Part shown: positions 52,158-62,088 of the stretch, in pieces | Numbering within the stretch: the stretch's first letter is position 1 | Layout: the number at the start of each line of letters is the position of its first letter | Origin: Zhongshania antarctica | GTDB lineage: Bacteria; Pseudomonadota; Gammaproteobacteria; Pseudomonadales; Spongiibacteraceae | Direction of reading: 5' to 3' | Assembly: GCF_014202945.1 (NCBI RefSeq) | Contig: NZ_JACHHW010000013.1 | Location: forward strand, 1-64,000 | DNA: 64,000 nt | Made by a program: the position numbers and the translations under genes | Notes under the pieces: model-generated | The model's database searches: none | Told to the model about the DNA's origin: nothing | The model's input: the letters and a program-made list of their open reading frames with translations, nothing else

Positions 52158-52285
52158 GAAAGCTAGGGTTCCGGTTGCGACTATTTCTATAGGTAAAGCA
52201 ACGACTGGTCCGAGAGCTTTCGACCTTCAGAGTACGTAGCTAGGCTGCAAGAAGGTTACACGGCGGGACAAAAGCCCGGGAGACG
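52158..52285 (+). promoter_or_regulatory. Guanidine-I (ykkC subtype 1) riboswitch
   Basis: The three conserved blocks of the ykkC RNA are present in order: CTAGGGTTCCGG, then GACTGGTCCGAGAGC, then ACACGGCGGGACAAAAGCCC followed by GGGAGA. P1 forms from GAAAGCT (52158-52164) and AGCTTTC (52215-52221). An internal helix is GTTGC/GCAAC, and ACCTTC/GAAGGT brackets the third helix. This aptamer binds guanidinium and turns genes on. It ends about 60 bases before the ATG at 52346, ahead of the whole transporter-carboxylase operon. Confidence 0.92.
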
Positions 52286-52345
52286 AACGGCGATATGCGC
52301 CAGGAGTGCTCTATGAAACCGTGTGAAACCTCTGGAGGTTCAACG

Positions 52346-59600: not shown

Positions 59601-60280
59601 AATACAACCCTGCGCGCACCTGGACTGCCGAAAACTCGGTGGGCATTGGCGGCTCTTATCTTTGTGTATACGGTATGGAAGGCCCCGGCGGTTATCAATT
59701 TATTGGTCGTACCCTGCAAATGTGGAATCGTTACCGGCGCACAGCGGAATTTACCGAACCCTATTTATTACGCTTCTTTGATCAAATTCGCTTTTACGAG
59801 GTTGAGCATGATGAGCTGTTGCAAATCCGTAATGACTTTCCATTAGGGAAGTATCCGCTGCGGATTGAAGAGGGCGAGTTCTCGCTTTCTGACTATCAAT
59901 CTATGTTGCAAGAAAACGGCGACGAGATTGCCAGCCACAACGCGAAGCGCGAGCAAGCCTTTGCTGAGGAGTTGGCGCGCTGGCATGCCGATGGTCAATT
60001 CCATTACCAAGCGCCAGAGGTTGTCGACAATGTTGATATTGTCATCTTGACCGAGGGTGAGATTCCCGTCGACAGCTCGGTGGCAGGCAGTGTGTGGCAG
60101 TTGCTGGTCGCCGAGGGCGATATTGTTACAGAGGGGCAGCCGCTGCTATTACTGGAGTCGATGAAAATGGAAATAGCCATATTAGCGCCCGAGGCTGGCC
60201 GCGTTAAAAAGCAATTATTGGCCGAAGGTGCGCGGGTTAGTGCAGGGCAATCGCTACTAGTGTTGGAGGCATTATCATGA
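56615..60280 (+). CDS. Biotin-dependent guanidine (urea-type) carboxylase
   Basis: This 1221-residue multidomain enzyme consumes ATP and bicarbonate. Residues 1-450 are biotin carboxylase ([48 protein letters not shown]). About 460-780 is a KipA/AHS2-type domain ([30 protein letters not shown]) and 800-1010 a KipI/AHS1-type domain, which together form the carboxyltransferase. The biotin carrier domain ends the chain with biotin Lys about 1184 in [11 protein letters not shown]. The architecture is that of bacterial urea carboxylase. Two flanking guanidine riboswitches and DUF1989 genes indicate that the true substrate is guanidine, giving carboxyguanidine. The stop overlaps the hydrolase start (ATGA). 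Confidence 0.9.
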   Translation: [1221 protein letters not shown]

Positions 60281-62088
60281 GCTTTACTTCTTCTTTAAGT
60301 TTGACGGATCTTCGTGGCCAATATATGAATGGCAGTCTTACGCCTCGCGAGGTATTCGCGACCATTGGCGAGCGCATTGAACAATATCGTGAGCACAATA
60401 TTTGGATTCACACGTTAACCGCGACAGAGTTAGAACCCTATTTTTTACAGCTGGAGCAGGCGGATATAAACGCGCTCCCGCTGTACGGAATTCCCTTTGC
60501 CATTAAAGACAATATCGACTTGGCGGGGGTGCCGACGACGGCAGCCTGCCCAGAATTTAGTTATATACCAGAACGCTCCGCCTTTGTGGTGCAGCGCTTA
60601 ATTGATGCTGGCGCGATTCCCGTGGGTAAAAGTAACCTCGATCAGTTTGCGACAGGCTTGGTCGGCGTGCGCTCGCCCTATGGCGCTTGTAAAAACAGCT
60701 TTGACCCGAGCATGGTCAGCGGCGGTTCCAGCGCCGGTTCGGCCGTTTCGGTTGCGCTGGGCATGGCCAGTTTTTCATTGGGCACAGATACCGCTGGTTC
60801 GGGCCGAGTGCCTGCGTGTTTTAATAATTTAGTCGGCGTCAAACCCAGTATTGGGTTGTTGTCGGCCAGCGGCATGTTGCCCGCTTGCCGCTCCTTGGAT
60901 TGCATCACGATTTTTGCCCTGCACTGCGACGATGCCAATACACTCTTGGCCGTCGCCGAGGGCGAAGACGCCACCGATGCTTATAGCCGCGTAAATCCTT
61001 TTGCCAATCAATCGCGGTATTACGGCACGTGGCAGGGGATGCTGCGAATCGGGGTATTGCCAGCAGATCAGCTCGCCTTTTTCGGTCACAGCGATTACCA
61101 AGCTAGCTACGAGCAAACGATCACCGCCTTAAAAGAACAAGGTGCTGAAATTGTCGAGGTGGATTTTGCGCCCTTTATAGAAGCGGCGCGGCTACTCTAC
61201 GAAGGGCCGTGGGTCGCGGAGCGTTATATTGCGACCACGCCGATGATTCAAGACAATCCCGAGGCCATGCTGCCGGTAATTCAAACCATTATCGGTGGCG
61301 GCGCCAAGAGTTCGGCGGTAGACGCCTTTCAAGCCCAATACCGTTTAAAAGCCCTGCGCAAAGCCGCGACCTCAGTGCTAGCGTCGGTAGATTGTTTGTT
61401 AAGCCCAACCGCAGGCCGCCCCTATAGCATCGACGCCGTAAACGCAGATCCCATTAAGTTAAATAGCAATCTGGGTTATTACACCAATTACATGAACCTC
61501 TTCGATCTGGCGGGGGTGGCAGTGCCGACCGGTTTCACGGCGAGCGGTTTCCCCTTTGGTGTAACCTTAATTGGTGAGGCCTTCACTGATCGCCGATTAT
61601 TGTCGATTGCCAATCGCATACAGCAGTATTTCCACTTGCCGCTGGGCAAAGATCAGGGCGCCTTTCAGCCCACAACCGTTAGCCCAATTGCCAATCAGCA
61701 GCGCATAGCCGTGGCAGTGTGCGGCGCTCACTTACAAGGTCAGCCACTAAATTGGCAGCTCACCGAGCGCGGAGGCTACCTGCTTGAAAAAACCACATCG
61801 GCGCCAAATTACAAGCTCTATGCGCTGGCCGGTGGCCCGCCATTTCGCCCCGGTATGGTCGTAGCGCAAGCGGGTGAAGGCCAGACTATCGAAGTAGAAG
61901 TGTGGTCTTTGCCTACTACTGAATTCGGTAGCTTTGTAGCGGGCATTCCCGCGCCTTTAGGAATTGGTAAAGTCACGCTGACAGATGGCAGCCAAGTGAG
62001 TGGGTTTATCTGCGAAGCCTCGGGCTTGGTGGGGGCCGAAGACATTAGCCATTTCGGTGCTTGGCGAGCGTATCTGGCCTCAAAATAG
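60277..62088 (+). CDS. atzF: Allophanate hydrolase
   Basis: This 603-residue amidase-signature enzyme splits allophanate to ammonia and CO2, the last step of the pathway. The catalytic triad is visible: Lys77 in FAIKDNIDLAG, Ser151 in SGGSSAGSAVS and Ser175 in TDTAGSGRVPAC. A C-terminal domain of about 130 residues (from AFQPTTVSPIANQQRIAVAV) is the allophanate-specific part, which decarboxylates the N-carboxycarbamate formed. Length matches AtzF/TrzF (about 605). It overlaps the carboxylase gene by four bases and ends the operon. Confidence 0.93.
   Translation: MSFTSSLSLTDLRGQYMNGSLTPREVFATIGERIEQYREHNIWIHTLTATELEPYFLQLEQADINALPLYGIPFAIKDNIDLAGVPTTAACPEFSYIPERSAFVVQRLIDAGAIPVGKSNLDQFATGLVGVRSPYGACKNSFDPSMVSGGSSAGSAVSVALGMASFSLGTDTAGSGRVPACFNNLVGVKPSIGLLSASGMLPACRSLDCITIFALHCDDANTLLAVAEGEDATDAYSRVNPFANQSRYYGTWQGMLRIGVLPADQLAFFGHSDYQASYEQTITALKEQGAEIVEVDFAPFIEAARLLYEGPWVAERYIATTPMIQDNPEAMLPVIQTIIGGGAKSSAVDAFQAQYRLKALRKAATSVLASVDCLLSPTAGRPYSIDAVNADPIKLNSNLGYYTNYMNLFDLAGVAVPTGFTASGFPFGVTLIGEAFTDRRLLSIANRIQQYFHLPLGKDQGAFQPTTVSPIANQQRIAVAVCGAHLQGQPLNWQLTERGGYLLEKTTSAPNYKLYALAGGPPFRPGMVVAQAGEGQTIEVEVWSLPTTEFGSFVAGIPAPLGIGKVTLTDGSQVSGFICEASGLVGAEDISHFGAWRAYLASK

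Follow-up and report, generated by a model that had tools for sequence, protein, structure and literature searches.

The 64,000-nucleotide window analysed here (contig NZ_JACHHW010000013.1 of Zhongshania antarctica, positions 1 to 64,000) carries on its plus strand an operon of seven genes, all in the same direction, predicted to serve guanidine assimilation by means of an ATP-binding cassette (ABC) importer, two carboxyguanidine deiminase subunits, a guanidine carboxylase and an allophanate hydrolase. The operon has a guanidine-I riboswitch at its head and a guanidine-II element between cgdB and the carboxylase gene (gca), and it belongs to the dual-riboswitch operons, an arrangement that is already known. 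Both aptamers, their positions and their conservation, as well as the guanidine-type residues of the carboxylase, were established computationally. Taken as a whole, it is quite probable that this guanidine-assimilation operon is controlled by two unrelated guanidine riboswitches, the one at the head being translational and the internal one gating translation of the carboxylase.

At the head of the operon lies the single match of the Rfam covariance model RF00442 in the 3.85 Mb genome at E 0.001 (52152-52284), with 84.9 bits compared to a gathering score of 63, and the segment is identified as a guanidine-I riboswitch with predicted binding of guanidine. Before the carboxylase gene there are two ACGR-loop hairpins (P1 and P2) closed by G-C pairs and joined by a short linker, at which model RF01068 (56561-56601) reached 23.0 bits, under its gathering score of 32 (E 0.01 in 301 bases; E 0.031 genome-wide, the second of 5 matches at E<=10). 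An earlier note, made from the sequence alone, had reported both classes within a single operon, with class II immediately in front of the carboxylase gene, at coordinates that proved right within 6 bases; of its proposed covariance searches, the one for class I was clearly positive, and for class II the score was marginal when taken alone and the matter was settled by the relatives.

The comparison set consisted of the best 80 of at least 590 confirmed relatives of the second DUF1989 protein in species genomes, whose loci were fetched; judging by their titles almost all are from Gammaproteobacteria, and among the matches listed the nearest are two Zhongshania records (88-89% identical). Class I was recognised by a fuzzy motif, with an Rfam check on 22 loci hand-picked for variety, all of them containing the tandem hairpins, and class II as a pair of ACGR-loop hairpins, each stem having 3 pairs or more, in the gap before the carboxylase gene. 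By these criteria 64/80 relatives have both classes, 10/80 class I only, 3/80 class II only (L043, together with L069 and L072, whose contigs are cut upstream) and 3/80 neither (L026, L071 and L048, the last cut upstream); L052, counted as class I only, ends before the carboxylase. The view of the earlier note that a transcript generally has a single class in known cases is at variance with these nearest relatives as well as with the operons described in PMC12508155 and PMC12186494. Two structurally unrelated sensors for one ligand in one operon constitute a natural case for examining what a second switch adds, with the near relatives having both classes or class I only as the comparative set.

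The guanidine-I aptamer and the start of the first gene

For the guanidine-I element, which scored over the Rfam gathering score in 22/22 of the hand-picked relatives, the most plausible reading is that of a translational ON switch, with the Shine-Dalgarno (SD) sequence imitating a strand of the aptamer itself. Without guanidine, the aptamer-helix strand GACCUUCAGAG would pair with the SD region CUCUGGAGGUU of the first gene, and a second OFF pairing is suggested between CCGUGU in the leader and the conserved aptamer sequence ACACGG. When guanidine is present, the strand would return to its partner in the aptamer (GAAGGUU, mimicked by the SD region) and the ribosome could bind; lost translation may add Rho-dependent termination. 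This prediction was based on the observation that most leaders contain no T-rich run and that the pairing between strand and SD region is specific to each locus.

In the free ensemble of 52152-52366, the pairing of 52222-52232 with 52330-52340 has a mean probability of 0.927. The leader test comprised 60 of the 75 class I sequences, the window included (15 without a recognised start or strand were left out, and about 6 with start codons that look wrong were kept). Duplexes between the aptamer strand and the 22 nt that precede the first start had a mean energy of -10.7 kcal/mol, compared to -6.1 at the carboxylase start (59 sequences), -6.5 at the start of cgdB, the second DUF1989 gene, and -5.0 kcal/mol for shuffled leaders; pairing at the first start was the stronger one in 48/59, 51/60 and 54/60 of these comparisons, respectively. 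The motif AGGT precedes the first gene in 42/60 sequences, the carboxylase gene in 13/59 and the second DUF1989 gene in 3/60, and an anti-ACACGG motif was detected in 23/60 leaders vs 3.8 expected. After removal of 10 of the 60 as repeated strands, own-locus combinations of strand and leader reached -10.52 vs -8.12 for swapped ones and none of 2000 permutations was as good (50 distinct strands, including 14 without an ungapped core). Strand bases 6-13 alone likewise gave 0/2000, and a control segment 28-50 nt upstream displayed no locus-specific pairing (358/2000 permutations as good). When one sequence per genus or unnamed group was taken (36 sequences), 0/5000 swaps were as good as the matched set.

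Alternatively, the head switch could act on transcription by a terminator/antiterminator mechanism, the complementarity to the SD region being a by-product of a purine-rich leader. Class I is described as transcriptional in the general model given in PMC12186494 and is presumed to be so in PMC12508155, and a T-rich run (8 bases with 6 T) lies between the aptamer and the start in 7/60 leaders; however, such a run is absent from 53/60, the window's included, and the pairing is stronger than at the starts of two other genes, its specificity for the locus extending beyond the GACCU core, so that control of transcription at the head is considered unlikely.

The published descriptions are not the only evidence that weighs against a translational head switch. 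In the folding model of the window, which includes neither ligand nor tertiary contacts, forcing the aptamer helix costs 8.3 kcal/mol and frees the first two GGAGG bases alone, the rest of the SD sequence re-pairing in a local hairpin, and the CCGUGU:ACACGG pairing persists. As the modelled release of the SD region is only partial, confidence in the explanation was slightly lowered and the transcriptional alternative raised. Furthermore, in 6/60 sequences, among them several whose start codon is doubtful, the pairing was not stronger than the mean of its own shuffles, and kinship among the loci was controlled in part, through the selection of one per genus. Neither pairing stood out from shuffles in L086, a Billgrantia locus of the Halomonadaceae with a doubtful start codon, suggesting that members of this family, Vreelandella boliviensis included, may differ in the mechanism of the head switch.

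The chances are evenly balanced for the broader proposal that in a large gammaproteobacterial group guanidine-I is a translational switch, with the aptamer strand and the SD sequence of the first gene as competing mimics, and that two unrelated RNAs each gate the operon at the level of translation, the synthesis of importer and carboxylase being set independently from one mRNA. The translational reading of guanidine-I goes beyond the open-licence PubMed Central literature searched, may already be in print elsewhere, and is the single point here for which bench work would be worthwhile. Should a translational head switch be confirmed, the division of labour attributed to such operons, in which class I controls transcription and class II translation, needs a test before use.

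The gap between cgdB and the carboxylase gene

Based on gene order, we infer that both switches are located on one mRNA. A hairpin on the cgdB stop (56517-56544) would speak for another arrangement if it were a working terminator, in which case the carboxylase and allophanate hydrolase genes would form a second transcription unit and the switches would not share an mRNA. Its 10-bp stem and the at least 5 T in its tail window are terminator-like, but similar sequences occur at other places in the genome: the 71-base stretch that contains it gave 22 further partial matches at E<=10, including 7 with E<0.05 (top match 86% over 35 bases, E 6.7e-5). Because these partial matches recur across the genome, the palindromic hairpin (56515-56549) is taken as probably a dispersed repeat of the REP (repetitive extragenic palindromic) kind, which may or may not slow transcription. 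In addition, perfect gap stems of at least 7 pairs (loops of 3-9) occur in 17/67 relatives, none as long as that of the window, and the 16 bases between the hairpin and P1 are too few for a promoter, with no promoter-like plus-strand site listed there. Separate transcription units are considered unlikely. A conserved terminator before class II was also considered as a candidate and rejected (18/68 gaps, window included, have a stem of at least 7 pairs, with 10 pairs in the window only). In two Zhongshania loci, L007 and L008, a similar but looser stem was seen in the gap by eye.

The element that follows was accepted as guanidine-II because it occupies the same gap in 67/80 relatives and its stems covary; it is thereby established as a member of this class by sequence comparison although its Rfam score is marginal alone. 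Across 68 sequences (window included), pairs 4, 5 and 6 of P1 are kept in 68/68, 59/68 and 56/68, and pairs 4 and 5 of P2 in 66/68 and 56/68; pairs 1-3 of each stem were imposed by the selection and the outer ones were not. At least 4 standard pair types were observed at each of P1 pairs 3-6 and at P2 pair 5, indicating compensatory changes, and registers shifted by one mostly pair worse, save at places where unchanging G and C neighbours can pair in any case. The ACGR loops, their closing G-C pairs and the short linker were also examined in an alignment of a hand-picked 47 of these 68 elements. A scan of 2.08 Mb of both-strand sequence (the window plus the 80 loci) for the strict form of the tandem element (both stems of at least 5 pairs, this spacing) gave 50 occurrences at the operon site vs 3 at other places, with just one in the window, at 56561-56602. 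A chance resemblance of two ACGG hairpins, for which the score under the gathering threshold could be invoked, is almost certainly wrong in view of the position, the covariation, the enrichment at this site of the operon and the 9/22 relatives whose sister elements exceed the gathering score.

The other 13/22 of these hand-picked relatives, more than half, have tandem hairpins in the same place and fall short of the gathering score, suggesting that the RF01068 cut-off likely loses guanidine-II members in this setting and that counts based on it are likely low. The best guanidine-II match of the genome (41.5 bits) is on another contig (G000:C2:95430-95472, L002:1501-1543) and precedes a gene of the small-multidrug-resistance family (PF00893), probably a guanidine exporter.

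The tandem element was missing from the gap in 13/81 sequences (80 loci and window). These comprise L052, without a carboxylase start on its locus; L026, L067, L074, L076 and L082, which failed the start-codon rule (gaps of 14-56 bases); and 7 others with no hairpin pair in the gap, including L050 with a gap of 100 bases. Four of them are Marinobacter loci (L067, L074, L076 and L082) with class I only, about 0.9 kb upstream of the second DUF1989 gene; the gap in front of their carboxylase gene measures 14-26 bases and could not accommodate class II. Two of the 3 strict elements found off the operon site may be genuine. One, in Roseospira navarrensis (L045:5170-5210), lies directly before the first DUF1989 gene at a locus with class I at its head and no tandem element before the carboxylase, and is perhaps the second switch moved. 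The other (L071:3393-3425) stands right before an upstream open reading frame (ORF), desaturase-like by eye, at a locus with neither class I (by motif) nor class II before the carboxylase.

Possible control of carboxylase translation

Like the head switch, the internal one would turn ON with the substrate. Guanidine would hold P1 and P2 together just before the ribosome-binding site, and the switch would thereby gate translation of the carboxylase, so that transcripts that are made, or read through, in the absence of guanidine would not yield this large ATP-consuming enzyme. Cooperative binding of two guanidines would be expected of a member of this class. Guanidine-II is held to free the ribosome-binding site (as stated in PMC10907184), and the distance of 10-24 bases from the end of P2 to the carboxylase start in 64/68 sequences fits control of initiation.

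We infer gating by guanidine-II, although the predicted release of the ribosome-binding site found no support in the fold comparisons. Forcing both hairpins changed its accessibility by a mean of 0.012 vs 0.014 in controls with shuffled downstream sequence, and the gain was above the control mean in 24/68 sequences (window included). None of 12 class II segment pairs, matched vs swapped over 55 distinct elements, was convincing; the best two, the P2 5' strand (10/1000) and the P1 3' strand (48/1000), each with the ribosome-binding region, are unremarkable for 12 tests, and the former may reflect mere stem extension.

Other OFF structures were examined and rejected. In the most stable fold of the window, P1 and the following bases pair with the start-codon and SD region, but relatives do not keep this fold; an anti-SD sequence in the linker, the 5' flank or either P1 strand was no better than shuffles.

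The earlier note had also proposed that sensors of different affinity could set a low threshold for the uptake and deiminase genes and a separate control point for the carboxylase. In the guanidine carboxylase operon of V. boliviensis, where both classes were studied by in-line probing (Sinn et al. 2025, PMC12508155), KD values of 44 μM guanidine for class I and 93 μM for class II were reported. Their direction fits the proposal, and as they are about twofold apart they leave it little room, so that different thresholds are at present weakly supported. By analogy with that operon, a clearer difference between the classes would be that class II also binds methylguanidine (83 μM), for which class I showed no binding in the tested range.

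Known arrangements and genes of the operon

As described in PMC12508155, the V. boliviensis operon is like that of the window in having guanidine-I in the 5' leader, guanidine-II between cgdB and gca, and genes for importer, deiminase, carboxylase and allophanate hydrolase. It differs in that mgdH and mgdL lie between gca and atzF, whereas in the window gca and atzF overlap (56615-60280 and 60277-62088), and, by description, in that its class I is presumed transcriptional whereas the leader in the window suggests control of translation. A dual arrangement was likewise described for three enterobacteria (PMC12186494), in which, also compared by description, importer and deiminase genes are under guanidine-I and the carboxylase and allophanate hydrolase genes immediately downstream are under guanidine-II. 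The part consulted of a review on tandem riboswitches (PMC9481103) gives no tandem arrangement for any guanidine class. Tandem riboswitches as described there share with the window the use of more than one switch for one ligand, but they are stacked upstream of a single ORF, whereas the switches of the window precede different genes about 4.3 kb apart, and by that description the operon would not count as tandem. In Alcanivorax, guanidine-II was reported as detected in A. dieselolei and A. xenomutans only, before a sugE-like gene (PMC9788540, in the part consulted); two Alcanivorax loci of the comparison set (L040 and L058) have guanidine-II over the Rfam gathering score before the carboxylase gene.

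Despite the urea names of its families, the carboxylase is assigned to the guanidine type because Asp724 and Asp975 are found at the marker positions given in PMC11410670 (Asp residues at Kluyveromyces lactis positions 1330 and 1584). In an alignment with the yeast urea amidolyase of known structure, on which positions were counted by hand, Asp724 falls opposite Asn1330 and Asp975 opposite position 1584 (where the match line indicates identity, the yeast line ending earlier). For the substrate-binding protein, ATG 52346 is preferred over the start of a longer ORF at 52295, considering the SD sequence and the signal-peptide-like start. The features are collected in Table 1.

Table 1. Predicted features of the guanidine operon in the window, in order of position.
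Feature	Coordinates	Strand	Evidence
Guanidine-I (ykkC) aptamer	52152..52284	+	RF00442, 84.9 bits (gathering 63), E 1e-13 in the window
Aptamer helix 5' strand (GACCUUC) and loop bases AGAG	52222..52232	+	Pairs with 52251-52257 (aptamer) or SD region 52330-52340
Aptamer helix 3' strand (GAAGGUU), imitated by SD region	52251..52257	+	Rfam alignment, folding
SD region CUCUGGAGGUU of first gene (GGAGG 52334-52338)	52330..52340	+	Predicted sequestered without guanidine
ABC transporter substrate-binding protein	52346..53389	+	TIGR03427, 558.7 bits (cut-off 333.9), scored on longer ORF
ABC transporter permease	53540..54364	+	Taurine/nitrate-type permease families, scores below equivalog cut-offs
ABC transporter ATP-binding protein	54361..55137	+	Many ATP-binding-protein families, those listed below cut-offs
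UAAP1, carboxyguanidine deiminase subunit (DUF1989)	55140..55850	+	TIGR03425, 308.2 bits; PF09347; CgdA by operon order
UAAP2, carboxyguanidine deiminase subunit (DUF1989)	55866..56522	+	TIGR03424, 324.4 bits; PF09347; CgdB by operon order
10-bp hairpin with T-rich tail on cgdB stop	56517..56544	+	Terminator-like; at least 5 T in tail window
Guanidine-II element, tandem hairpins	56561..56601	+	RF01068, 23.0 bits (gathering 32)
Guanidine-II hairpin P1 (CAGUGG ACGG CCACUG)	56561..56576	+	RF01068, covariation
Guanidine-II hairpin P2 (ACGGG ACGG CCCGU)	56589..56602	+	RF01068, covariation; ends 12 bases before carboxylase start
Guanidine carboxylase (family name: urea carboxylase), 1221 residues	56615..60280	+	TIGR02712, 1776.4 bits (cut-off 1303.85)
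Allophanate hydrolase	60277..62088	+	TIGR02713, 787.1 bits (cut-off 511.05)

In the 150-base gap between the genes for the substrate-binding protein and the permease, an inverted repeat was observed, AGGCTAAGC (53431-53439) and GCTTAGCCT (53500-53508), which is perhaps an RNA processing or stability element.

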